From a virus, in the IMG/VR virus record IMGVR_UViG_3300028025_003477, positions 1-40,091 of that record: a stretch of 40,091 nucleotides of DNA; one strand, written 5' to 3'. The notes beneath the pieces were generated by a model. It made no database searches, was not told where the DNA came from, and saw only the letters and a list, made by a program, of their open reading frames with translations. The position numbers and the translations under genes are program-made. Below are positions 11,468 through 37,906 of the stretch, piece after piece. Position 1 is the first letter of the stretch. Each line of letters begins with the position of its first letter.

Positions 11468-11476
11468 TATAAATAT
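11468..11476 (-). promoter_or_regulatory. ATATTTATA box upstream of the 2171-aa fibre gene
   Basis: This exact nonamer (gene orientation) overlaps the last base of the 62-aa gene stop and lies 44 bases before the fibre ATG. It is one of about ten copies placed at transcription-unit boundaries in this window; a promoter role is proposed, not shown. Confidence 0.5.
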
Positions 11477-21928: not shown

Positions 21929-22533
21929 TAGCTATATTTTATTAAGTTAAGTTGTGTTGTTCTTGTTAAGTAAGCACCTAATGAATATAAAACTATTTGT
22001 CCTGGGGTTCCAACTGTTGATTCTGCATCTCCTGCTCCTGGTATTGTTATAAATGATCTATCTACTGTATTTACCTGGTAGTATCTTTCTTGATCAGTTA
22101 TTATATCTCCTACTTCAGGAGTAAAATTTAATCCAGTTTCGTCTATATTTAGTTTTGGTATCTTAATTGTCATAGTCTGATTTATATCAGGACCATATTC
22201 AGTATCAGTATAAGCAAAATCTCCTCTTTCAATTAAACATTTTACTTCAAATGGAGGATAATACCATTTTTCAGTTGCTTCACCATACATATTAACTGTT
22301 GTTTTATATAAATCAATTTTAAAATAACCAACTTTCATATTTGAAAAGTTGATTTGTGCTTGTATAGCTTGATCTATATAATTGTTAATTATAGTAACGC
22401 CAGCAGGTGGGCCTGAAGGAGTTGAAGGAGCACCTGGTTTAGTAGCCGAAGCTGTAGGGGCTGTGTCTGGAAAATTTCCAGGGTCACAATCGCCTAAGTT
22501 AATATACCTTTGTACTCCTAAAAATTGCTTCAT
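21928..22533 (-). CDS. Putative neck protein (gp14-like)
   Basis: This 201-aa protein has a proline/alanine-rich N-terminal linker (about residues 22-48) followed by a compact domain. The block EVGDIITDQERYYQVNTVD resembles the conserved motif of T4-type neck protein gp14, in which a beta strand follows a surface-exposed GD turn. NMYGEATEKWYYPP also fits that family. gp14 forms the neck with gp13 and closes the filled head. The gene overlaps the stop of the gp13-like gene by one base, and pairing of the two supports the call. The match is weak and from memory; another head-tail connector is possible. Confidence 0.5.
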   Translation of the reverse strand: MKQFLGVQRYINLGDCDPGNFPDTAPTASATKPGAPSTPSGPPAGVTIINNYIDQAIQAQINFSNMKVGYFKIDLYKTTVNMYGEATEKWYYPPFEVKCLIERGDFAYTDTEYGPDINQTMTIKIPKLNIDETGLNFTPEVGDIITDQERYYQVNTVDRSFITIPGAGDAESTVGTPGQIVLYSLGAYLTRTTQLNLIKYS

Positions 22534-24155
22534 TAGAATATATAAATTGGTAAAGGTATTTGTTGTAATGTATCTCTCATAAATCCAGCTTCGAGTTGTT
22601 TACGCTCTAATTGACCTTTACGTGATGTTTCATTCAACATTTCCTTCAATTCTGTTATCAATTGATCTTTTTCTGTTCTAGCGTCAGCTACTAACTCAGA
22701 TCCTTGAAGTGAACCTACACCTTGTACATTAACATTAGCAAATTGAATACGAATATGAGCTTCAATTTCTCTACTTAATGCTAAAGTATATTTAAAAATC
22801 CAAGTTCTACCTACAGTATTAATTTTAGAATAGATTGGATTTCTAAAAGGAGCATTCATTACATCAGTAACAAGATTTGTTCTAGCATCCTTTACAGGAT
22901 TATACTTTTCACTTATTTTAACGTATTCAAAAAATAATCTTTTATCTCTATCAGGAATAGGGAATATTTTTAGTTGATTATTTACTAGATTAAATGAAAA
23001 AGCTGCTTTCCTAATTTGATCATTAAATTCAATTGCTTGAATTTTTTGAACATCAAAGTTAATTGGCATTAATAAGAAGTTAATACCAGGAGAAAATTGA
23101 CCAAATCCAAAAGTTTCCAATAATGATTGTATACCAGTACCTGTACCTGCGTATGGGTCAAAGTAACGAACGATTGCGGGTGGTTCTTCATAAAATACTC
23201 TTCTGATTTCAATTCTATCACCAGCATCTAATGATGCTGAATCGGCAGCCCAGGCATTTAAATCATAGTTTTGGACTCCACTTTTCATATCTACAGAACC
23301 TGTTATTACATTAAAGTTACCACCAATTCCAGCTTCTGAAGCATAATCATCAGCAATAGTAGTAGTTAAATTGGCAAGGTTATTAGTAATTAACTTATTA
23401 TTTAATTCAGGTTCTAAGCTATCTTGAATATAAACTGTTGGTATAGATCCAGTTCCAAATATTGCATTTCCTCCTGCTATTTGTGGGCTAGTAGTAAATA
23501 AGTAAACATGGCTTTCACCAGAGGTAATAACAGAGGCACTTGTTGGACCTCCGGTTCTATTTAATTGATTATAAACATATGTACTTAAATCAACAGTTAA
23601 ACCAGTATTTACTGTTACAAATTCTGTAGCTAATGTAATTGATTTTACATAATCAATATTAGGTAACACAAAATTATTTACAGAAGCAGATATTACATAT
23701 ACACCTCCATTAACAATTGATTGAGAAAAATGTGTATCGTAATTAATATCAGCATATGTAGCTAATCTAGCAGCAGACCAAGTTACTGGGGAGTTAATAT
23801 CAATACTATTAACAAAAGTAACAGTATTATTATTGAAAGGAGCAGCATCTGATCCTTCAATATTAATAAATTGATCTCTAATTTTGTATTGATAAACTAA
23901 ATTACCATATGTAGTAACTGCTTCTTCAAAAGCAGCATATACAGTTAAGTCACTAATATTAAGTTGTGTAAGACCCAATCCACTAGCGCCTAAGCGCTGT
24001 GATACAAAGCGTGTGCAACTTTTTGCGTCACGAACGAATTCAGGGTCGTTTGTATAATATTCAAATGGTGTATTACATTTGACAGGATTTAAATACGATG
24101 TATCACCGTAATATTCATCCCACAGTTTTTTTAGATTTATTGCTTTTGCGCCCAT
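22533..24155 (-). CDS. Putative neck protein (gp13-like), enlarged
   Basis: This 540-aa protein is longer than T4 gp13 (about 310 aa). The C-terminal third carries the gp13-type pattern: a helix with FKYTLALSREIEAHIRIQFA, then the loop GVGSLQGSELVADARTEKDQ and a terminal helix. The central part contains DRIEIRRVFYEEPPAIVRYF and AFSFNLVNNQLKIFPIPD, a beta-rich region. In T4, gp13 joins the portal after packaging. The N-terminal 150 residues (EYYTNDPEFVRDAKSCTRFV) have no match I know. It heads a run of overlapping genes and has an ATATTTATA box 22 bases before its ATG. Confidence 0.6.
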   Translation of the reverse strand: MGAKAINLKKLWDEYYGDTSYLNPVKCNTPFEYYTNDPEFVRDAKSCTRFVSQRLGASGLGLTQLNISDLTVYAAFEEAVTTYGNLVYQYKIRDQFINIEGSDAAPFNNNTVTFVNSIDINSPVTWSAARLATYADINYDTHFSQSIVNGGVYVISASVNNFVLPNIDYVKSITLATEFVTVNTGLTVDLSTYVYNQLNRTGGPTSASVITSGESHVYLFTTSPQIAGGNAIFGTGSIPTVYIQDSLEPELNNKLITNNLANLTTTIADDYASEAGIGGNFNVITGSVDMKSGVQNYDLNAWAADSASLDAGDRIEIRRVFYEEPPAIVRYFDPYAGTGTGIQSLLETFGFGQFSPGINFLLMPINFDVQKIQAIEFNDQIRKAAFSFNLVNNQLKIFPIPDRDKRLFFEYVKISEKYNPVKDARTNLVTDVMNAPFRNPIYSKINTVGRTWIFKYTLALSREIEAHIRIQFANVNVQGVGSLQGSELVADARTEKDQLITELKEMLNETSRKGQLERKQLEAGFMRDTLQQIPLPIYIF

Positions 24156-24904: not shown

Positions 24905-25453
24905 TCATAATAATGAATCGGATTTAACCCTATTTTCAGTTATAGTAAGTGGTTGTGTGTTAGTGTAATGAAATGATCCACCTTTAGCTAAAGGATATAT
25001 ATGATCTATTTCCCAATATGAACCATAATTTTCCCAATTCATTTCTGGTGTAAATAGTGGCTCAAGATATGCTTTATATTCTTGTATTGTACAGTCTAGG
25101 TAGTCGATGCTGCTTTGTGATTTACCTTCTTTAAGGTGGTGGTGTATAAGAGCGTTGATTGCGTGGCGGAGGCGGAAGAGTGGATCTGTATCATATTTAG
25201 TTTGATTCCATTGGCGGTAATAATCTTTGTTAGAATGGTAGTGAGATTTCATCAATTCATTATGGCGATCTCTATTTTCTTTATGCCATTTATTAGTACG
25301 TTTAAGATGTATTTCCTTGTTGTTTGTATACTCTATTTTATGTTTTTCACTCCTACATCCTTTACAATAGATATGATATCCGTCAGGAGTATCTTTTTTT
25401 CTACAATATTGATCTAGTGATTTATTAATACTACATTTTTTACATTTTTTCAT
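24905..25453 (-). CDS. Free-standing HNH homing endonuclease
   Basis: The N-terminus has a zinc-ribbon arrangement (CKKC near residue 4, then CKGC about 30 residues later). The C-terminus carries the HNH core: EIDHIYPLAKGG, an Asn in NTQPLTITENR, and a final Lys/Asp motif. Such genes encode site-specific nucleases that spread themselves into phage genomes lacking the insertion. I place the start at the ATG at 25451-25453 (MKKCKKC); an upstream TTG at 25471 is in frame but falls next to the terminator U-tract. The length is 182 aa. It sits directly downstream of the capsid genes, a frequent place for homing genes in T-even phages (segD lies next to gene 23). The target site is not identifiable. 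Confidence 0.88.
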   Translation of the reverse strand: MKKCKKCSINKSLDQYCRKKDTPDGYHIYCKGCRSEKHKIEYTNNKEIHLKRTNKWHKENRDRHNELMKSHYHSNKDYYRQWNQTKYDTDPLFRLRHAINALIHHHLKEGKSQSSIDYLDCTIQEYKAYLEPLFTPEMNWENYGSYWEIDHIYPLAKGGSFHYTNTQPLTITENRVKSDSLL

Positions 25454-25458
25454 ACATG

Positions 25459-25467
25459 TATAAATAT
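25459..25467 (-). promoter_or_regulatory. ATATTTATA box upstream of the HNH gene
   Basis: Exact nonamer 5 bases before the chosen ATG and just after the terminator U-tract. This spacing is too short for a normal promoter-plus-leader, which counts against the chosen start, the promoter reading, or both. Confidence 0.45.
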
Positions 25468-25475
25468 ACAAAAAG

Positions 25476-25502
25476 AAGACCCGAGTATCAAACTCGGGTC
25501 TT
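25476..25502 (-). terminator. Rho-independent terminator after capsid copy A
   Basis: In gene orientation, a perfect 11-bp stem (AAGACCCGAGT with ACTCGGGTCTT) around a 5-base TTGAT loop is followed by CTTTTTG. It lies 38 bases past the capsid stop. The plus strand also has a T-rich flank, so it could act in both directions. Confidence 0.88.
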
Positions 25503-25508
25503 TTATTT

Positions 25509-25524
25509 TAGCCTTACGGGGCTA
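25509..25524 (-). terminator. CCGTAA-loop hairpin after capsid copy A
   Basis: The stem TAGCC/GGCTA with hexaloop CCGTAA lies 16 bases past the capsid stop and just before the stronger terminator. It lacks a U-tract of its own, so it is more likely an RNA-protection or protein-binding hairpin than a terminator. Confidence 0.6.
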
Positions 25525-25540
25525 ATTATTACGATTTATA

Positions 25541-27238
25541 TTACAAGGTATTTAAACCAGCAACATAAATTTTACCATAGTAATCTGGGCGGATCATCTT
25601 CTTTGCGTAACGAGTCATCAAACCTTTCCTTGGTGTGAAAGTATTTGGATCGTAAAGAAGCGGAGTCATAATCAATGGAACATATGGAGCGAACACAGCA
25701 CCACATTCTAAGAATTGGGCGCCTTTATAACCCATAAGGATTACGTTTTCAGTCATATATGGGTTCTTGTAAACTTTATAACGACTGTTCAAGCTACCAA
25801 CTTTCTGAATGCCGAAGTTGAATTCCATTTTCTCACCATCACCGTCAGCTGCAAATCCAGGAATTGATTCCAAGATAGTTGCAACAGTAGGAGAAGTTAC
25901 GAGGAAATTAGCACCACCTCTTAAAGTTAACTGGTGGATGATATTGGATACTTTTTGGAGTTTAGTTCCAAGTGTTTGGAACCAACCACCTTGTGTGTTG
26001 TAATATCCAAGATCAGTAGAAGCACCGGTTGAACTTAAAGATGCGTTGTTAACTGCAGACCATCTATCAGTTGTGTATGCATTTTGAATCAACATATCTA
26101 AAATCTCAAGATCAATTTCCATAGAAATATATTGAGATAAAATTCCTGTCAATTCAGCTTCAGCATCAACTGAGTGGTAAGCGTTAAGATCTTGTGCAAA
26201 TTCAGGTGTCCATTGTGCCTTTAATTTCCTTGTTTTGGCTACAATTGCTTCAGATTTCAACTGAACGTTGATTTCAGGAATAGAGATTGTAGTGTTAGAC
26301 AAGTTACTTGGATAACCACCATTACCTCCAGCAACACCAGAACCACCACTAACAGAAGCATCTTCAAAGTCACCACGAGCAGTTGCAGATGGAGCTACGG
26401 AAAAATATAAAATAGTAGTTTGAGTAGCATTTGAACCACTTCCAGGAACAAGTACTGAACCTGATCCAAAGAACAAAGATGATGTTAAGAGGAAAGAAGC
26501 GGTACTGTTTGTTACAGTGATAAAAGCTTGTAATGCTGACTGTTGAGCTATACCATAAGTACCTAAGCTTGTTGAACCAGATAATATACTTCCACTAATA
26601 AAGAAGCTGCGAGCAGCAAACAAATCAGCGGGAGCAGGTAGAGGAACTAAAAGTTTCCTATATTGATTAGAAGCAGCAGAAGCTGAAAAATCTGAATCAA
26701 AGTTAAAATCAGCCCATGTAGCTAAAGCACCAGTTACAGCTGAAATAGAAGCTGAGAATTGGTTAATAGAATATCCAAATTGTCCAGCACCATAAAGTGA
26801 TTCAGAAGTAATATCAGTTACATTTGTAGATGCATTAGCACCATATAATGATCCTCCATTAGGGAAGTGAACATCATTAGTACCATATTTGAAATCAAGA
26901 TAGAATACGAGACCAGAAGGTAAGTTCATTGGTTGAACTGAAACGAATTCCTTCGCTGCAATTTCTCCAAATACCCTACGTACTAGTGGTAAAGCAACTC
27001 CACTCCAACTCTCACCATTGTAAGCGCCAGCGCCACCAGCTTGAGTACCTGTTTGGGAAGCTTCAGAGATCAATTGTTTTGCTTGATTTTCAAGCAACAT
27101 TGACATTGTGTTTTTATCATTAACGTTGTTAATTCCTTCCAAAAGGCCAGATTTAACCCACTTAGATGATAATTTTTTAGCGTCATCCATTACATTTTTG
27201 TATTGGTTTGAGCTTTCTAATAATTGTTGTACGTTCAT
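25541..27238 (-). CDS. Major capsid protein paralogue A (gp23-like, 565 aa)
   Basis: A HK97-fold T4-type capsid protein. Landmarks are the N-terminal helical region with NTMSMLLENQAKQLISE, GVALPLVRRVFGEIAAKEFVSVQPM, LKAQWTPEFAQDL, GGANFLVTSP and the C-terminal PYVPLIMTPLLYDPNTF. T4 gp23 is cut by the gp21 protease after an (L/I)xE site near residue 65; the matching site here is LISE59|A60. Residues 322-565 differ from copy B at only six positions. Residues 121-320 are highly divergent and 31 residues longer. It lies downstream of copy B, separated by a terminator, and has the same AAATCGTTTAAA leader. It may supply the pentamer vertices, as gp24 does in T4, or be an alternative hexamer shell protein. 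Confidence 0.93.
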   Translation of the reverse strand: MNVQQLLESSNQYKNVMDDAKKLSSKWVKSGLLEGINNVNDKNTMSMLLENQAKQLISEASQTGTQAGGAGAYNGESWSGVALPLVRRVFGEIAAKEFVSVQPMNLPSGLVFYLDFKYGTNDVHFPNGGSLYGANASTNVTDITSESLYGAGQFGYSINQFSASISAVTGALATWADFNFDSDFSASAASNQYRKLLVPLPAPADLFAARSFFISGSILSGSTSLGTYGIAQQSALQAFITVTNSTASFLLTSSLFFGSGSVLVPGSGSNATQTTILYFSVAPSATARGDFEDASVSGGSGVAGGNGGYPSNLSNTTISIPEINVQLKSEAIVAKTRKLKAQWTPEFAQDLNAYHSVDAEAELTGILSQYISMEIDLEILDMLIQNAYTTDRWSAVNNASLSSTGASTDLGYYNTQGGWFQTLGTKLQKVSNIIHQLTLRGGANFLVTSPTVATILESIPGFAADGDGEKMEFNFGIQKVGSLNSRYKVYKNPYMTENVILMGYKGAQFLECGAVFAPYVPLIMTPLLYDPNTFTPRKGLMTRYAKKMIRPDYYGKIYVAGLNTL

Positions 27239-27255
27239 TTTAAACGATTTAAAAA

Positions 27256-27283
27256 GAGAACTAGCCTTACGGGGCTAGCTCTC
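27256..27283 (-). terminator. Terminator hairpin between the two capsid genes
   Basis: The left arm GAGAGCTAGCC pairs with GGCTAGTTCTC (11 bp, one G-U pair) around the loop CCGTAA, followed by TTTTT. It lies 8 bases past the stop of copy B. The ATG of copy A is only about 12 bases beyond the U-tract, so copy A can be expressed from this transcript only by read-through. Confidence 0.85.
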
Positions 27284-27291
27284 AATTGTTA

Positions 27292-28896
27292 TTAAAGGGT
27301 ATTTAAACCAGCTACGTAGATCTTACCATAGTAATCTGGGCGGATCATCTTCTTAGCGTACCTAGTCATCAATCCTTTTCTAGGAGTGAAGGTGTTAGGA
27401 TCGTAAAGAAGCGGAGTCATGATCAACGGAACATATGGAGCAAATACAGCACCACACTCAAGGAATTGAGCACCTTTGTAACCCATCAAGATTACGTTCT
27501 CAGTCATGTAAGGGTTTTTGTAAACCTTGTAACGACTGTTAAGAGAACCAACCTTTTGGATACCGAAGTTGAATTCCATTTTCTCGCCATCGCCATCAGC
27601 AGCAAATCCAGGGATTGATTCGAGGATTGTAGCTACGGTTGGAGAAGTAACGAGGAAATTAGCACCACCGCGGAGGGTCAACTGATGGATGATGTTAGAA
27701 ACCTTCTGTAATTTAGTACCGAGGGTTTGGAACCAACCACCTTGTGTGTTATAATATCCCAAGCTTGTAGAAGCACCAGTTGCATCTAAAGCTGAGTTGT
27801 TAACAGCAGACCACCTTTCAGTTGTGTAAGCGTTTTGGATCAACATATCGAGGATTTCAAGATCAATCTCCATAGAGATGTATTGAGACAAGATACCAGT
27901 CAATTCAGCTTCAGCATCAACACTATGGTAAGCGTTAAGGTCTTGAGCAAATTCTGGGGTCCATTGTGCTTTCAACTTACGAGTTTTAGCAACGATTGCT
28001 TCAGATTTCAACTGAACGTTGATTTCAGGAATAGCAATTGTAGAAGGAGCGTTAGTTTTAGTTTGGCCATCTTCAAAATCACCACGGCTAGTAGCAGTTG
28101 GAGCTACATCATAGAATAATACTACACCACCACCTAAAGCACCAGCAGCACCTGCAGATACTACAGAAGAAGTAACAAGGAATGAAGCTGTAGTTTGAGC
28201 AGCATTGATTGTAGTAAATGCTTGCAAGTTTTGAGCAACACCTATAGAACCAGAAGTGATAATAAAAGCACGAACTCCCAATGGATCAGCATTGCTTGGT
28301 AAAGCAACATTGATTTTAGTGTACTGAGCAGCAGAGGCTGAGTAGTTAGAATCAAAGTTAAAATCAGCCCAGTTAGCAGCAGAAGCAGTAACAGCATTTG
28401 TACCAGATTGGGTGTATTGGTTGATAGAATAACCAAACTTACCAGCACCATACAAAGAAGCGGAGTTGATGTCAGTTACGTTGTTAGAAGCATTAGCTCC
28501 GTAAAGAGAACCATTGTTAACAAATGGGTTAGAAGTGGTACCATATTTGAAGTCAAGATAGAATACGAGACCAGAAGGTAAGTTCATTGGCTGTACACTA
28601 ACGAATTCTTTAGCAGCGATTTCACCAAATACACGGCGAACCAATGGCAAGGCAACACCAGACCAGCTTTCGCCGTTATAAGCGCCAGCACCACCAGCTT
28701 GAGTACCAGTTTGAGAAGTTTCAGTAATCAATTGTTTAGCTTGGTTTTCAAGCAACATTGACATTGTGTTCCTGTCGTTAGTGTTTTTGATACCTTCCAA
28801 AAGGCCGGATTTTTCCCACTTATTCGACAATTTTTTAGCGTCATCCATTACATTTTTGTATTGGTTGGATGATTCAAGTAATTGTTGTACGTTCAT
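27292..28896 (-). CDS. Major capsid protein paralogue B (gp23-like, 534 aa)
   Basis: It has the same family landmarks as copy A, including the identical N-terminal MNVQQLLESSNQYKNVMDD segment and the same last 150 residues. The predicted maturation site is LITE59|T60. The variable section (about 121-289) is shorter, with the inserted loops of copy A missing. It lies directly downstream of the scaffold gene, the position of gene 23 in T4, and first in the transcript, so it is the best candidate for the abundant hexamer protein. By eye its codons use more C-ending forms than those of copy A. The A-rich leader lacks a Shine-Dalgarno sequence. Confidence 0.94.
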   Translation of the reverse strand: MNVQQLLESSNQYKNVMDDAKKLSNKWEKSGLLEGIKNTNDRNTMSMLLENQAKQLITETSQTGTQAGGAGAYNGESWSGVALPLVRRVFGEIAAKEFVSVQPMNLPSGLVFYLDFKYGTTSNPFVNNGSLYGANASNNVTDINSASLYGAGKFGYSINQYTQSGTNAVTASAANWADFNFDSNYSASAAQYTKINVALPSNADPLGVRAFIITSGSIGVAQNLQAFTTINAAQTTASFLVTSSVVSAGAAGALGGGVVLFYDVAPTATSRGDFEDGQTKTNAPSTIAIPEINVQLKSEAIVAKTRKLKAQWTPEFAQDLNAYHSVDAEAELTGILSQYISMEIDLEILDMLIQNAYTTERWSAVNNSALDATGASTSLGYYNTQGGWFQTLGTKLQKVSNIIHQLTLRGGANFLVTSPTVATILESIPGFAADGDGEKMEFNFGIQKVGSLNSRYKVYKNPYMTENVILMGYKGAQFLECGAVFAPYVPLIMTPLLYDPNTFTPRKGLMTRYAKKMIRPDYYGKIYVAGLNTL

Positions 28897-28922
28897 TTTA
28901 AACGATTTTGTGTTTTTAAAAA

Positions 28923-30026
28923 TTAATATTTAGTAATACCTGCGAGCATTTGCCACCTAGACATTGTTTCGTTTACCTCAACAATTTGTTTTTTAGGTGC
29001 TACACCAGCAGCTTTAGAAGCAAACCCTAATGATTCTTTGATAGTGCTTTTCTTAGATTTTGCGATAGCATTATTCATTGATTCAAAAATAGCTTTGGCT
29101 TCTTTCGCAGTAGTTGCTTTGTCAAACTGGGCAATTACTTTGAGTTTTTGTGATTCGTTCAAATTCTTAGCTTTGAATACTTTGTTTACATAAAGCAACT
29201 TAGCGTTAAGAAGATTAACTTCGTTAAGTTCGTTACGAAGAGTTTCGATTGTATCGATTGCCTCTTTCATATCGTCTTTTTTGTCATCTTCTTTCTTCTT
29301 TTTAGCTTCATACATACCTTCGTTTTCGTCGTCACCTTCACCAAGTGCGTCGAGTTCAGCTAATAATTCTTCTAAATCGATTTCGTCGATTTCTTCTTCT
29401 TCACCTTCCATTTCGATACCAACTTCTTCACCACCTTCTTCACCACCGAGATCCATTGACATTTCTTCTTCACCACCCATATCTCCCATGTCAGCGTCCA
29501 TTTCGTCGCCACCCATTTCAGATGAGATGATGTCTTTAATAATGTCTTTGAGTTCATCCATAGTTAAGTCTGTGATGTTTTCCATTTCAGATTCATCTTC
29601 GGCTTCTTCGTCTTCCATTTCAGCTTCGTCTTCTTCAGCTTCCATTTCTTCGTCTTCAGCTTCTTCTTCTTCTTCGGCTTCGTTCATTTCAGGTTTTTCT
29701 TCATCATCGCTTAATTCAGCTAAGATAGAGGATAAGTCGAAATCTTCTTCAAGTTCTTCTTCGTTTTCTTCGAGTGCAGCATGTCTTTCTCTAGCGCCAA
29801 CATGTTGGAAATCGTCAGTACGATAAGTGTCTTGACCGAGTGATTTTTCTTCAAGTTTCTCTTCTTCAGCATCGTCCATATCCATCTCTTGTAACTTTGC
29901 AGCTAACATAGATTGAAGTTTTGGAGCGAGAGCTTCTTCAAGAGCAACTTTTGCGTTTGCTAACGCAGCTTCGCGAACGGCTTTAGCGTCGGCGATAGCC
30001 TCTTTGAATAAGTCTTTGTTACTCAT
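28923..30026 (-). CDS. Prohead core scaffolding protein (gp22-like)
   Basis: This 367-aa protein has a helical N-terminus (KDLFKEAIADAKAVREAALANAKVALEEAL) and a very acidic centre at about residues 55-240 rich in EEE, DEE and GGEE. A coiled-coil C-terminal half (TIETLRNELNEVNLLNAKLLYVNKVFKAKNL) ends TMSRWQMLAGITKY. Highly charged helical proteins placed between the prohead protease and the capsid gene are the scaffold gp22 in T4; they fill the prohead and are then degraded by gp21. Several LxE/IxE sites are visible. Its ATG has the clearest Shine-Dalgarno sequence in the window. The call rests on position and composition, not on a specific motif. Confidence 0.8.
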   Translation of the reverse strand: MSNKDLFKEAIADAKAVREAALANAKVALEEALAPKLQSMLAAKLQEMDMDDAEEEKLEEKSLGQDTYRTDDFQHVGARERHAALEENEEELEEDFDLSSILAELSDDEEKPEMNEAEEEEEAEDEEMEAEEDEAEMEDEEAEDESEMENITDLTMDELKDIIKDIISSEMGGDEMDADMGDMGGEEEMSMDLGGEEGGEEVGIEMEGEEEEIDEIDLEELLAELDALGEGDDENEGMYEAKKKKEDDKKDDMKEAIDTIETLRNELNEVNLLNAKLLYVNKVFKAKNLNESQKLKVIAQFDKATTAKEAKAIFESMNNAIAKSKKSTIKESLGFASKAAGVAPKKQIVEVNETMSRWQMLAGITKY

Positions 30027-30116: not shown

Positions 30117-30143
30117 ATGGGCAACCTATTGTAGGATGCCCAT
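30117..30143 (-). promoter_or_regulatory. Leader hairpin of the scaffold-capsid operon
   Basis: Arms ATGGGCA and TGCCCAT (7 bp) enclose a T-T mismatch and an inner CCTA/TAGG stem with a 3-base loop. Its right-hand bases are also part of an alternative pairing: AGGTTGC at 30121-30127 (gene orientation) with GCAACCT at 30103-30109. The two structures are mutually exclusive. Confidence 0.65.
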
Positions 30144-30149
30144 AAATAT
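30141..30149 (-). promoter_or_regulatory. ATATTTATG variant box of the scaffold-capsid operon
   Basis: One mismatch from the nonamer. It overlaps the foot of the leader hairpin and lies 114 bases before the scaffold ATG. Confidence 0.45.
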
Positions 30150-30284: not shown

Positions 30285-30902
30285 TTAGCACAACGGACAA
30301 ACACCAGTTGCGTTACAAATGATTTCAGTTATTAAACTGTTTACTTTACTATAATCTTTTGTAGATTTATGTTGCTTAGATTCAGCTAATGACATGTAAG
30401 CCATTGGAGTAGAGGGAACACTAACAAGGTCCCAGCAGAGCAACTCGAAGTCGTCTTGTACCTCTACTGTTTCACCTAATTGTCTAACACTACCCATACC
30501 ACGAGATGATATTCCAAGTGGAATACCAGCCATTACTAATGCTTTAGCAATGTTACCAGCTGGTGTAGGTAATAGTTGTAATTTACCCATTAAGTCGTTT
30601 CCTTTCCACCATACTTCAGTAATTACGTGTGAAGTGTTAGATAAATTTACAACAGATGCTTCAGGATGATCGAGTTCTCCTAGAGCAGTGCGAGTTTTTA
30701 CAGGACCATCTGCATATTTTTTGGCTTCTCTTTCAAGAATTTCGCGAGGATATACACGACCATTACCATTCTTTTGTTCGGCTTCTTGTAGTTTACCTAC
30801 AAGAGTAACAAGATTTTTACCTTCACCTAACTGTTTATTTTCTAGTATTGTTAGATTAGCTGATTGAAATGGTGTGTGGTCTATTAATAATGATTTGTTC
30901 AT
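30285..30902 (-). CDS. Prohead core protease (gp21-like, peptidase U9/S77 type)
   Basis: The T4-type prohead protease cuts scaffold, capsid and internal proteins during head maturation. The likely triad is visible: His79 in GELDHPE, Ser132/133 in GISSRGMGSV, and Asp158 in LLCWDLVSVPS. The segment AEQKNGNGRVYPREIL is also typical. I start at the ATG at 30900-30902 (MNKSLLIDHTPF, 205 aa), one base after the stop of the 417-aa gene. An in-frame ATG at 30935 would add 11 residues and overlap that gene by 32 bases. The C-terminus ends CNATGVCPLC, a possible two-cysteine metal or disulfide motif that is unusual for this family. Confidence 0.92.
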   Translation of the reverse strand: MNKSLLIDHTPFQSANLTILENKQLGEGKNLVTLVGKLQEAEQKNGNGRVYPREILEREAKKYADGPVKTRTALGELDHPEASVVNLSNTSHVITEVWWKGNDLMGKLQLLPTPAGNIAKALVMAGIPLGISSRGMGSVRQLGETVEVQDDFELLCWDLVSVPSTPMAYMSLAESKQHKSTKDYSKVNSLITEIICNATGVCPLC

Positions 30903-30903
30903 A

Positions 30904-32157
30904 TTATTTAATTTCGTCTTGAGCATATTGAGCATTCATATCGTCACGACCATCATACATTTCATCTAATACTTCACGTACCATTTTTTCTAGCATTGAT
31001 TTTAAATCATATTTACCTAAATCAACACCAGGTCTAAATGATGAGTTCTTTGGTAACATTCCTCTTACTTGTTTAAGAGCTTGTTCCAAAGATTTATCAT
31101 TGTACATTGGATGTGAAATAGTTGTTTCAAGAGTATCATCGGTAGCTTGAACATCTAAATCATAATTACCAATCATATTCTTTAATTCAGTTTGCTCATC
31201 TTTAGTAAGTGTACCTGTAATTGTCCATTCACCACCTTCGTTTAATTGACCTTCTCTTACAGCTTTCATTTTACCGCCAGTAGCAGCAAACTTTTGTAAA
31301 CCACGAACTGATTTAGCATTATGGGTTAATTCTTCAACACCTTTAACACCGCTATTAGTTTCTTTTTTAGCTTTATTTGATGATGCTTTAGCTTTTTCAA
31401 CACCTTTAACCGGCTTCATTGCATTAATTTTATCAACTAATTCAACGGCAGCTGTTACTTCTTTTTTAAAGGCTACTGGGGCTTTATATTTTGGAGTTGA
31501 AGGTGATTCAATTCCTGAAAGTTTAAGTGCTGTATAGTAGAATGGATTTTCAGCTAAATGATCTAAAGCAATTTTTTTAGCTTTATCTAAATCATCTGTA
31601 TGTTCCAATTCAACTTTAATACCCATCCTTAATTCTTGTGGGTGGATTTGATTTGGATGTATTTCGGCTTTAGGTTCTTTTTTCTTTTTAGCTTCACTAA
31701 GTCCACCTTCAAAATCATCAAATTTAGTGTATTTACCTGCTTCTTCTTCTTCTGCTTTAGCAATCATGTCAATAAATTCAGCATCTTCATCTTCACCATT
31801 TGCTGGTTGAATTGATTCAGGATCAACAGATATAAATCCTTCTCTATCTATTGAAGAAATAGTACCAATATATTCATTTTCTTCTTCATCGTATAATGAT
31901 ACTTTTCCTCCCGGGGCATCTGGTTCTCCGCTTTGATTATCAACATATAATTTTTTACCATTATAGTCATAAGAAAGAGCTTCATTAGCATATGCTTCAC
32001 TTAGTATACCCTTATTTTTAAGGATTCTAACTGAATCTTTAAATGAAGTTACATTAGTAACGTATTGAGGCATTGTCATACGTAAACTTCTCATGAAGTT
32101 ATGTTGGGACATTCTGCCTTCCATTAAATCAATGTACTGTTGTTTTATACTTTTCAT
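30904..32157 (-). CDS. 417-aa head-cluster protein with a DUF5661-like segment
   Basis: Residues 163-215 (HPQELRMGIKVELEHTDDLD, then KKIALDHLAENPFYYTALKL) match a motif I know from the phage domain of unknown function DUF5661. The N-terminus MKSIKQQYIDLME is a possible prohead-targeting helix ending LxE. The centre is acidic and lysine-rich with low complexity (GLSEAKKKKEP). The C-terminal 120 residues contain a small alpha/beta domain (WTITGTLTKDEQTELKNMIG) and end in a helix reading LEKMVREVLDEM. It lies just upstream of the prohead protease, where T4 has core genes 67 and 68, so a core or internal head protein is plausible. No enzymatic motif is seen. Confidence 0.75.
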   Translation of the reverse strand: MKSIKQQYIDLMEGRMSQHNFMRSLRMTMPQYVTNVTSFKDSVRILKNKGILSEAYANEALSYDYNGKKLYVDNQSGEPDAPGGKVSLYDEEENEYIGTISSIDREGFISVDPESIQPANGEDEDAEFIDMIAKAEEEEAGKYTKFDDFEGGLSEAKKKKEPKAEIHPNQIHPQELRMGIKVELEHTDDLDKAKKIALDHLAENPFYYTALKLSGIESPSTPKYKAPVAFKKEVTAAVELVDKINAMKPVKGVEKAKASSNKAKKETNSGVKGVEELTHNAKSVRGLQKFAATGGKMKAVREGQLNEGGEWTITGTLTKDEQTELKNMIGNYDLDVQATDDTLETTISHPMYNDKSLEQALKQVRGMLPKNSSFRPGVDLGKYDLKSMLEKMVREVLDEMYDGRDDMNAQYAQDEIK

Positions 32158-34315: not shown

Positions 34316-36202
34316 TTATATGTCCTTAATATTTTTCTCATCTAATAGTGATGGTTCCTGGTCAGGTCCAAACACTAATGTCTTACGAGCTATGTTCATA
34401 CCCTCAAACAATCCTTTGTGTTTATTTAATTCAGATAAACCAACGGGTGATCCACCTTTTGGTGTGCCATCTTCACTAGGTATATTAGCAGTATATAATG
34501 TATTATTATCTTTTCTACCTAATCTATCTTTACCCAATGGATCGTCTTGTGTATTGATCATTGATGCTTTCTCTATAGGACGGCCAATAGGACGTTTTTC
34601 ATCGTATCCAGGAGGTACAGGACCATCAACATTCATTCCTGCTCTACCTTTACCATACAATGATGCTAGGTCGTGTGGTGTACCAAATGATCTACCTGTT
34701 TTAGCCGGATCATTACCTTCGTTTTCAACCTGAGCCATTCTAAATACTCGTTTTTTATCTTCGATTACTAGATCACGGTATTCATCAAACTCATCTTCAC
34801 TGAATTGGAATATATTATCATAGATCCAATCTGAAGGTAATAGGTTAGTATCTTGAATTGATTTAGCTAGGTCAACTTTTTCTTTCCACAATGCAACTTT
34901 TTCTTGTTCATAGATGATTGACGGAACAGTTAACGATAATTCAAAGTTAGCCAATGATTCACCTTCATATCCTTGAACATATAAATGTACTAATGCCATT
35001 TTATATAGCTCAGATAAAGCAACACGTTGAATACGTTCAACTGTACGAGCAAATCTAATATCTTCAGCAGCTAATGTAGCTTTACCTTGTAGATCTTTTT
35101 CAAATCCAAAATATGCTTTTGGTATCTTAAGCGCAGCTAACATTTCATCACGTAGGAATACTACGTCTTCAATTCCACCATATTCTAATCCTTTAAGAGT
35201 ATCAATTTTAGTTGCTGTATCATTTCCACGAGTTGGAAGATAAAAATCTTCCATCATGTTTTGTAAATTATAACGCAGATTATAATCGCCAGTTTGATGA
35301 TCCATGTATGGAGTTTTCTTCATCTTTTGTATTATCTTCTGCATATATGCATCAACTTCATGTGGTGGTATATTACCAACATTTACAGTGAATACACGTT
35401 TTTCTGGGGCGCGAGTAATACGATGTAGCAACATCGCATCTTTCATTAGCACATATTGCTTATATGTTTTACGAGCAGGCTCAATGTATGAACGACCATA
35501 AGGTAGATAGTTAGCATCTGTTAATAGTCTAAAGTGAGCTATTTCGTAGTTTTCAAATTTAATTTTACCATCTCTATCTTTAACACGTGAACTAATACCA
35601 CCAGCAGCGATTACCATTGGATCGATTCTAAAACATACGTAAGATGGATTTTCAGGATTTTGTCCTTCTTCACGAACCATATCATATACTGATAATGGTG
35701 TTACATTGTAAATACCGAATTTTTCAGCAATTTCCATATGTAAATAAAAATCACCATATTTACACATGTTTCTAATCCACAACCATAAATTAAATTCAAT
35801 ATTTAAAACATCGTAAAATAAATTATATAAAATACGTTGAATATTTTCATCAGCACTTCTAATCTGTAATACTTCACCCATTTCATTTTTAAGAGTAGAT
35901 TCATCTGAGATGATATCTAAAGTAGAAGCGATGATAGAATCTGTATCCATTGCCTCATAATCAGTATACAACTGAATACGAAGTGTTTGGTAATTCATCG
36001 TTGGGTTATATGGCATATTAGCACCATAACGATGAAGTTTAGTAAATCTATCTATAAGTGCGTTGGTTTTTACATTACCAAAGGATTGAATTTTGTCTAC
36101 ATCTATTACCTTTAGTTGACTACCACCTACATTTCGTATGATTACATCAGTACTAAATAAGCGTGTTAATCTATTAAATAAACCTGGTTGGTTATCTGCC
36201 AT
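34316..36202 (-). CDS. Portal vertex protein (gp20-like)
   Basis: This 628-aa protein is longer than T4 gp20 (about 524 aa). T4-type portal features include RIQLYTDYEAMDTDSIIAST, LYGNLF-like RILYNLFYDVLNIE, WLWIRNMCKYGDFYLHM, LPYGRSYIEPARKTYKQY and GFEKDLQGKATLAAEDIRFA. The last is in the region that forms the stem and clip in gp20. Twelve copies form the ring at one capsid vertex through which DNA is packaged. The extra length is a C-terminal tail from about residue 515, proline/glycine-rich (MNVDGPVPPGYDEKRPIGRP) and probably disordered. It follows the terminase gene, the usual functional neighbour. Confidence 0.93.
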   Translation of the reverse strand: MADNQPGLFNRLTRLFSTDVIIRNVGGSQLKVIDVDKIQSFGNVKTNALIDRFTKLHRYGANMPYNPTMNYQTLRIQLYTDYEAMDTDSIIASTLDIISDESTLKNEMGEVLQIRSADENIQRILYNLFYDVLNIEFNLWLWIRNMCKYGDFYLHMEIAEKFGIYNVTPLSVYDMVREEGQNPENPSYVCFRIDPMVIAAGGISSRVKDRDGKIKFENYEIAHFRLLTDANYLPYGRSYIEPARKTYKQYVLMKDAMLLHRITRAPEKRVFTVNVGNIPPHEVDAYMQKIIQKMKKTPYMDHQTGDYNLRYNLQNMMEDFYLPTRGNDTATKIDTLKGLEYGGIEDVVFLRDEMLAALKIPKAYFGFEKDLQGKATLAAEDIRFARTVERIQRVALSELYKMALVHLYVQGYEGESLANFELSLTVPSIIYEQEKVALWKEKVDLAKSIQDTNLLPSDWIYDNIFQFSEDEFDEYRDLVIEDKKRVFRMAQVENEGNDPAKTGRSFGTPHDLASLYGKGRAGMNVDGPVPPGYDEKRPIGRPIEKASMINTQDDPLGKDRLGRKDNNTLYTANIPSEDGTPKGGSPVGLSELNKHKGLFEGMNIARKTLVFGPDQEPSLLDEKNIKDI

Positions 36203-36234: not shown

Positions 36235-37815
36235 TTATCCTAGTATCCATGATGCATCTTCAACTCCCCCACGGCCATCATTCATCGAAAATGGATTTGA
36301 TTGTCCACTAGGTAGTAATGGACCCATTTCATAGCTAGTTCTAGTAATATTAGATACCATCGCTCGATTCAGATCCATTCCTTGTTCGTAGAATTTCATT
36401 GCTGTGTCTCTTGTGAATAATCCTATTCCTAAAGACATTACTAAGTCGTCATTATATCCGTTTTGTGCTTGAGCCTTACCGTGTTGCCAAATAAACACAC
36501 GTAATTCTTCTAACAAACGTTTAGAACGAAAAGTAAAAGCCTTCTCACGAATATACGACTCCATTTTTGCTACAACAAGAGGTCTTGTTTTAGCAGATGT
36601 GGTAAAACCAGGAACTGTTTGTTCCTTTTCCATTTTATCCATCCATTTATCTATATGCATTTCACCATAAGCACGAGGTGAATAATATAGTTTTTGATAT
36701 CCTTTTTCTATAATTGTATTAATTACATCCCATCCGATATTCGCATTTTCCACCACAAGCAAAGCATTATTATACTCAGTAGCAACAGAAACGAGCATGT
36801 TTCCAAAAGTGCGCGTGTCGATCTGCGATTTATATTCTGCCACTTGCTCACAAGTTGTCGCATCAATGATATGGAAAGCAGAAAAGTCGCTACTATCTCC
36901 ACGAGCAACATCAGCACATACAATATACTGCTTACTATAATCAGGATACTGCCAAATCCAAAAGTCGCCACCCATAAAGCGGCGCTCGACCGGATCTTGT
37001 ACAAATGTTTCTTCATAAAATGATAATAAGTCGGGTTCAATTACTGAGTTACCAGATCCTAAAAAGTCACAGTCGTATTCTTGAGCAAACTCACGAGGTG
37101 ACATATTTGTTCTTTCTCTTTGCTCCCAGGATTCATCTCTATCTGGGTGTAAATTCCATCTTAGTTTAATTGCTTTGAAGTCATTTTTACCTATTTCAGC
37201 TTCAGCATACATTCTATGAAACCAATTACCAACCCCATTTGGAGAAGATAACGCAATTATACCTCCACCAGTTGCAATTGTAGGTTTAATACTTGTATAT
37301 ATTTTATCAATACCCTCAATAAACGCAGCCTCATCTATCAATAATAAAGATACTGCGTAAGATCGACCTGCATCTGATGCAGCTGATGTGGCAACTATTT
37401 GAGAGTTATTGGATAATTTTAGTGATAATTTATTATCTGATACAGGTTTTTGATTACCTTTTAACCAAGAAGGTAGATTATTGTACATAAACTGTACCTT
37501 TTCAACCATTCCTTTGGCAGTTTCTTGCTTAGTTGCTATACAAAGTACTGTTTTATCTTTATTAAATAGCATTGTCCACAATGAATATCCTGCAGATAGT
37601 GTTGATATACCTAATTGTCTTGATTTATTAATGATACTAAAACGATTATTTCTAAAATCATTTAATACATCTTCTTGAAATGGATATAGATGGAATAATA
37701 CTCTTCCCTTAATTGGGTGTGTAATATAACAGTATTTACGGAAAAAATGTACAGGATCAGTAGCGCACTTGATATACTCCTGCTTTATTATTTCTTTAAT
37801 ATTAGCTTGACTCAT
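36235..37815 (-). CDS. Terminase large subunit (gp17-like)
   Basis: The DNA-packaging motor of 526 aa, with an ATPase and a nuclease domain. Walker A is the atypical SRQLGIST (residues 65-72), in which the usual Lys-Thr is Ile-Ser. Walker B is LLLIDEAAF (157-165), with the catalytic Glu next to Asp161. The coupling motif ALSSPNG is at 188-194. The RNase H-like nuclease acidic residues are Asp302 (ADVARGDSSDF), Glu356 (VVENANIGW) and Asp456/457 (NDDLVMSL). T4 gp17 is about 610 aa, so this protein lacks some of its N- and C-terminal extensions. The ATG is only 3 bases after an ATATTTATA box. A small terminase subunit was not recognised in the window. Confidence 0.95.
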   Translation of the reverse strand: MSQANIKEIIKQEYIKCATDPVHFFRKYCYITHPIKGRVLFHLYPFQEDVLNDFRNNRFSIINKSRQLGISTLSAGYSLWTMLFNKDKTVLCIATKQETAKGMVEKVQFMYNNLPSWLKGNQKPVSDNKLSLKLSNNSQIVATSAASDAGRSYAVSLLLIDEAAFIEGIDKIYTSIKPTIATGGGIIALSSPNGVGNWFHRMYAEAEIGKNDFKAIKLRWNLHPDRDESWEQRERTNMSPREFAQEYDCDFLGSGNSVIEPDLLSFYEETFVQDPVERRFMGGDFWIWQYPDYSKQYIVCADVARGDSSDFSAFHIIDATTCEQVAEYKSQIDTRTFGNMLVSVATEYNNALLVVENANIGWDVINTIIEKGYQKLYYSPRAYGEMHIDKWMDKMEKEQTVPGFTTSAKTRPLVVAKMESYIREKAFTFRSKRLLEELRVFIWQHGKAQAQNGYNDDLVMSLGIGLFTRDTAMKFYEQGMDLNRAMVSNITRTSYEMGPLLPSGQSNPFSMNDGRGGVEDASWILG

Positions 37816-37818
37816 GTA

Positions 37819-37827
37819 TATAAATAT
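37819..37827 (-). promoter_or_regulatory. ATATTTATA box upstream of the terminase gene
   Basis: Exact nonamer in gene orientation with only three bases to the ATG. If it is a promoter, the terminase message would be almost leaderless. Confidence 0.45.
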
Positions 37828-37835
37828 ATAAAGAA

Positions 37836-37859
37836 AACCCGACCTTACGGGGCCGGGTT
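37836..37859 (-). terminator. Terminator hairpin upstream of the terminase gene
   Basis: In gene orientation the 9-bp stem AACCCGGCC/GGTCGGGTT (one G-U pair) closes the hexaloop CCGTAA and is followed by TTTCTTTAT. It probably ends the transcript of the 319- and 224-aa genes, 48 bases past the stop of the latter. Confidence 0.75.
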
Positions 37860-37864
37860 AGAGA

Positions 37865-37886
37865 GCTATAATACTGAGACTATAGC
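37865..37886 (-). promoter_or_regulatory. Small inverted repeat after the 224-aa gene
   Basis: Arms GCTATA and TATAGC with a 10-base loop precede the CCGTAA-loop terminator, so two hairpins stand in tandem, as after capsid copy A. Confidence 0.4.
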
Positions 37887-37906
37887 GGGGCTTGCATGGG
37901 TAGGGA

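Follow-up and report, generated by a model that had tools for sequence, protein, structure and literature searches.

A terminator-like hairpin between tandem gp23-like capsid genes suggests read-through expression of the second copy

The window analysed here, an IMG/VR virus fragment taken at its full length of 40,091 bases and carrying its main genes on the minus strand, encodes two successive major capsid proteins (MCPs). Judged from the sequence, and with moderate confidence, we propose that a hairpin in the gap between the two genes is an attenuated intrinsic terminator, and that the second gene (copy A) would be expressed by read-through and in smaller amounts than the first (copy B). Read from high to low coordinates, the minus strand encodes the large terminase subunit (36235-37815), the portal protein (34316-36202), a head-maturation protease (30285-30935), an acidic core-protein-like gene named by inference from its position (28923-30026), copy B (534 aa, 27292-28896), copy A (565 aa, 25541-27238) and an HNH/endonuclease VII-like gene (24905-25471). 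Profile matches across the capsid fold to PHROG 138 (E 5e-74 and 8e-72 for the two copies) and matches to gp23 in the PDB (E ~1e-30) place both copies in the major capsid protein family of T4 gp23. Among annotated phages, copy A was matched in 2501 records at 2509 places. The isolates nearest to the window are immuto-group phages of Flavobacterium, represented by four records with one MCP each.

The gap between copies B and A spans 53 nt (27239-27291) and reads TAACAATTGAGAGCTAGCCCCGTAAGGCTAGTTCTCTTTTTAAATCGTTTAAA on the minus strand, followed directly by the ATG of copy A. The original prediction had placed an 11-bp hairpin with a TTTTT tail in this gap and about 12 bases between the U-tract and the start codon, and both statements were borne out on the minus strand. 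The hairpin (27256-27283), found by folding and by a scan for terminator-like sites, has an 11-bp stem formed by the arms GAGAGCTAGCC and GGCTAGTTCTC, with six G-C pairs and one G-U pair, a CCGTAA hexaloop and a predicted energy of -17.8 kcal/mol; its centre is the sequence CCCCGTAAGG (27265-27274, minus strand). The five T residues follow the stem immediately (27251-27255) and give way to AAATCG, which makes the tract short and broken. Exactly 12 nt separate it from the ATG of copy A. These 12 nt, AAATCGTTTAAA (27239-27250, minus strand), also stand before copy B, which indicates that the leader was duplicated along with the gene. On the minus strand, the whole gap folds with a minimum free energy of -19.0 kcal/mol (z = -6.4; none of 200 shuffled sequences was as good), and only 9 of 4004 minus-strand windows of 53 nt in the record are equally stable, two of them being the gap itself. 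The gap hairpin also ranks first in the scan of the region, which returned 14 terminator-like sites where 8.9 +/- 3.2 were expected from shuffled sequences. It is thus a stable, GC-rich stem-loop directly before a U-tract, the arrangement that defines an intrinsic (Rho-independent) terminator.

A degenerate junction pattern consisting of the end of an MCP gene, a spacer and the start of an MCP gene was used to search contigs for further tandem pairs and identified five in addition to the window: L086 (= L003), L088, L087 (= L016, L091), L089 and L090. All six gaps contain one terminator-like hairpin and no promoter box, and the order is B-type followed by A-type wherever it can be read, L089 including no more than 67 residues of its second copy. 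The gaps of L003 and L088 are identical to that of the window, letter for letter. The hairpin shared by L016, L089 and L090 is unrelated in sequence (ACGACCAGG-TGTAANAG-CCTGGTCGT) and also has a U-rich tail; in L089, one A-U pair is replaced by G-C and one C-G pair by U-G, and all 10 pairs are kept. The single compensatory change is not significant on its own (three sequences; 164 of 500 shuffles). The junctions amount to four distinct sequences in about two hairpin lineages, and a hairpin has thus been retained between B and A while its sequence turned over between lineages. An assembly artefact was ruled out by the recurrence of the junction in contigs from different metagenomes. Repeating the junction scan with longer spacers yielded three more hits (L170-L172), which are chance matches. 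Four related contigs (L022, L023, L024 and L025) end or begin within an MCP gene, which would be expected where assemblies fail at tandem copies; tandem pairs are probably commoner than these counts show.

Terminator strength was estimated with a d'Aubenton-Carafa-type score that is calibrated on E. coli and not tuned for Bacteroidota or for a phage-modified polymerase. The four distinct gap hairpins scored 15.4 (window), 4.6, 19.2 and 6.0, compared to a median of 41.9 for 68 distinct terminal MCP terminators of relatives. The difference was significant in one-sided Mann-Whitney tests against all 68 terminators (P 0.001) and against the 20 closest ones (P 0.002), although these values overstate independence, as the four gap sequences derive from about two hairpin lineages. 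Stem energies of the gap hairpins equal those of the terminal MCP terminators, and the lower score comes from the U-tract, which scored 3.2-4.0 in the gaps (3.9 in the window) versus mostly 4.2-6.0 in the 68 terminal terminators; among the 20 close ones the range is 3.3-6.0 with a median of about 5, so that the gap values are lower but within range. The direction of this difference agrees with partial termination but falls short of proof. The original prediction that copy A relies on a leaky terminator remains the simplest reading, with B predicted to be expressed above A, because all six junctions have a hairpin without a promoter and their U-tracts are weaker. It is less well served by the window itself, where the terminal terminator after copy A scores 17.7, and the predicted difference to the gap hairpin is small in this phage.

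The ends of MCP genes in related viruses suggest where part of the gap hairpin came from. Relatives of copy B were gathered from viral contigs and the DNA past each MCP stop codon was read. In nearly all of them, the only MCP gene leads into a strong hairpin whose T tract is long (mostly T6-T9), and a TATATTTATA-type box comes shortly after it. This pair of strong terminator and box is present after copy A and never between B and A. In the closest relatives, the true terminator is preceded by a short hairpin with the invariant sequence CCC[C/T]GTAAGG and no T tract, which stands 16-20 nt past the stop codon in most of the close MCP genes; besides the window, it was seen in L004, L005, L009-L011, L013, L015-L018, L021, L024, L025 and L041. 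The stem of this short hairpin covaries, with G-C replaced by A-U in 7 of 16 sequences and U-A by C-G in three (10 double-change cells, reached in none of 500 shuffles). The window has this standard 3' end after copy A, where the short hairpin TTAGCC-CCGTAA-GGCTAA (25508-25525, minus strand), a conserved 3'-UTR element of the MCP genes of this clade without a T tail, is followed by the terminal terminator with an 11-bp stem and CTTTTT (25470-25502, minus strand) and by the box. The hairpin between B and A shares the CCCCGTAAGG core, has a longer stem of 11 bp and is followed by T5, which indicates that part of it was carried along with the gene. Rfam contained no match at gathering score, and weak matches to sRNAs (E 0.04-0.2), well under the gathering scores, merely reflect terminator hairpins. 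An element GCCCCGCTATAGTCTCAGTATTATAG stands before a CCCCGTAAGG terminator upstream of the terminase gene in the window (37816-37906) and after the MCP gene in L014 (near 6662) and L064 (near 6621).

The position, covariation and recurrence of the CCCCGTAAGG stem-loop, which lacks a T tract and precedes the real terminator also after copy A, could mean that the gap hairpin mainly serves the 3' end or the processing of the mRNA and was copied together with the gene, with a minor role in termination and with B and A largely on one transcript. We regard this as rather unlikely. The extension of the stem to 11 bp and the T5 in the window gap set this hairpin apart from the 3'-UTR copies, and the gap hairpin of L016, L089 and L090 has a different sequence, yet a U-rich tail.

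Copies A and B are 79% identical. Up to residue ~120 and in most of the C-terminal region, identity is 80-100%, whereas the region 120-318 is only 54% identical, contains indels and is the main site of difference. It corresponds to the insertion-domain stretch of gp23, which makes bumps on the T4 capsid surface (PMC9958956). The insertion domain of copy A (residues ~120-318, 26285-26881, minus strand) is of a distinct A type, and that of copy B (residues ~120-287, 28036-28539, minus strand) is nearest to the single-copy MCP of L004. In a protein tree of this domain, copy A of the window and the second copies of L003, L088, L016 and L090 cluster in a single clade (UFBoot 100) that excludes the single-copy MCPs, among which the first copies fall. 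A DNA tree of the C-terminal region also groups the second copies, more weakly (UFBoot 79). Within a genome, A and B have diverged at synonymous sites almost to saturation (C-terminal dS 1.1-1.6), and together with the A clade this marks the second gene as a paralogue that arose long ago and has been maintained, as opposed to a recent repeat. As L004, which is closest to copy B, has a single MCP, A must have been lost or moved at least once. Recent gene conversion as the origin of the near-identical cores was rejected on the basis of the dS values and the C-terminal grouping of the A copies, and we leave the likeness of the A and B flanks within a genome as a result of shared constraint or of old conversion. 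A 540-aa protein encoded at 22533-24155 on the minus strand contains a motif, LATYADINYDTHFSQS, that resembles LATWADFNFDSDFSAS of the copy A insertion domain (10/16 identical, pair E 0.005).

Codon usage gave mixed and weak evidence for a lower expression of copy A, on which we do not rely. In each of the five genomes, A has a lower GC3 than B (0.214 vs 0.311 in the window), and a comparison of codon bias at the same residues with close MCPs as reference was significant in four of five pairs. With distant MCPs as reference, lower adaptation of A relative to B was seen in L016 and L090 alone and not in the group of the window. A four-way comparison of synonymous rates was significant in one of three genome pairs. 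The two copies were modelled with AlphaFold at a mean pLDDT of 48-49 and a pTM of 0.27-0.29, and only the insertion domain (~160-265) was confident. A structure comparison with the low-confidence model of copy B was uninformative, returning unrelated beta domains with Z < 7 and no capsid protein in the list.

The original prediction went on to suggest that copy A may form the few pentamers of the capsid. In T4, gp24, which is ~20% identical to gp23, occupies 11 vertices (PMC9958956). Copy A might be an equivalent dedicated vertex protein, with the terminator fixing the ratio of B to A: it lies downstream of the main MCP gene as gene 24 does, it is an old, maintained paralogue with an insertion domain of its own, and its expression is likely to be lower. 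We consider this unlikely. Relatives with a single MCP, such as L005 (182,846 bases), L004 and others, must build all capsomers from one protein, so that a vertex paralogue is not required in this family. By its sequence profile, the A copy also classes with gp23 (72 bits) and not with gp24 (17 bits), and its capsid core and C-terminal region are nearly identical to those of B. Furthermore, the T4 vertex gene is arranged differently: gene 24 of T4 and JS98 has its own late promoter, TATAAATA, within ~40 nt upstream and past a hairpin terminator, and no TATAAATA stands before copy A. The pentamer assignment is thus not supported, and nothing favours a vertex role over a role in a mosaic shell or in surface display.

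The promoter search upstream of copy A covered the known box types. As the original prediction had stated, there is no promoter box in the gap, and this extends to ~450 nt upstream of copy A, comprising the gap and the 3' end of B, in which we found neither the TATTTATA/ATAT[TG]TAT box of this family nor the Bacteroidota -7 element TAnnTTTG nor the T4 late promoter TATAAATA. The same three elements were absent from the ~450 nt upstream of A in all six junctions. A point missed in the original prediction is that copy B likewise has no box directly upstream. The core-protein-like gene ends 26 nt before it, the intervening sequence (28897-28922, minus strand) contains neither hairpin nor box, and the nearest box-like sequence upstream of copy B, TATATTTAT (30141-30149, minus strand), is located before the core-protein-like gene. 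The contrast between B and A therefore consists in the hairpin and not in the absence of a box alone. TATTTATA boxes were found on the minus strand at 11468, 19617, 24178, 24885, 25459, 36223, 37819 and 39561, nearly all of them intergenic, shortly upstream of gene starts and often directly past terminators, as is the one past the terminal terminator of copy A (25459-25466). TATTTATA is likely a late promoter, and it resembles the Bacteroidota -7 element with the last G altered.

Given the precedent of T4 and JS98, with a terminator after gene 23 and TATAAATA before gene 24, an unrecognised kind of promoter at the end of B could serve copy A, and the hairpin would then be a full, insulating terminator. 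The search results from all six junctions and the weak U-tracts of the gaps make this quite improbable. It is very unlikely that the hairpin acts mainly on translation, by lowering initiation at copy A or by blocking ribosomes leaving B: it ends 17 nt before the ATG of copy A in the window, and in Flavobacterium johnsoniae translation initiation drops when there is structure close to the start (PMC6847099), but this distance is not conserved and amounts to ~30 nt in L016, L089 and L090.

In the proposed attenuation by the gap hairpin, RNA polymerase would initiate at a promoter ahead of the core-protein gene and transcribe B, and some of the passing polymerases would terminate at the gap hairpin because of its weak U-tract. 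The remaining polymerases would read through into A and continue up to the terminal hairpins past A. B mRNA would then exceed B-A mRNA, and the A-type capsid protein, which combines the shared capsid core with another surface insertion domain, would be a minor subunit. As such, it might occupy vertices, lie dispersed among hexamers or go into alternative particles. The gap hairpin would probably also protect the 3' end of the B transcript. A wider conclusion is more tentative, possible in our view rather than probable: that a Bacteroidota T4-like lineage keeps an ancient second MCP, with a near-identical core and a distinct insertion domain, and doses it through a weakened terminator as a minor component of a mosaic shell.

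If the read-through interpretation is right, the closest functional analogue of the gap hairpin would be the terminator Tphi of T7, which is located directly after capsid gene 10 and leaves genes 11 and 12 to be expressed only via read-through (PMC5592923). In both cases a terminator, here a proposed one, stands right after the main capsid gene, and what lies downstream is, or here would be, reached only by read-through and in smaller amounts. Unlike here, T7 relies on a single-subunit RNA polymerase of its own, and its capsid gene is followed by tail genes instead of a capsid paralogue. Genes 23 and 24 of T4 are likewise tandem capsid paralogues past the protease and scaffold genes, with an intrinsic terminator after the first. 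The differences are that T4 has a UUCG terminator with T6, a homing endonuclease gene in between and the late promoter TATAAATA before gene 24, and that gp23 and gp24 are ~20-28% identical (PMC9958956), compared to 79% for A and B. Another duplication of a T4-type capsid gene is found in JS98 (L181, 3739-5687), where tandem copies of gene 24 are annotated as 24a and 24b. In filamentous phages, a terminator between genes VIII and III, past the major coat gene, lowers the expression of the minor coat gene, although phage and proteins are unrelated to those described here. Gene 10 of T7 also yields its capsid protein in two forms, the major 10A and the minor 10B (PMC5592923), by a frameshift within one gene and not by two genes and a hairpin. 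Should the proposed mechanism be true, it would represent a simple transcriptional control of the ratio of two co-assembling capsid proteins with a shared core and different surface domains, distinct from the separate promoters of T4 and from the frameshift of T7.
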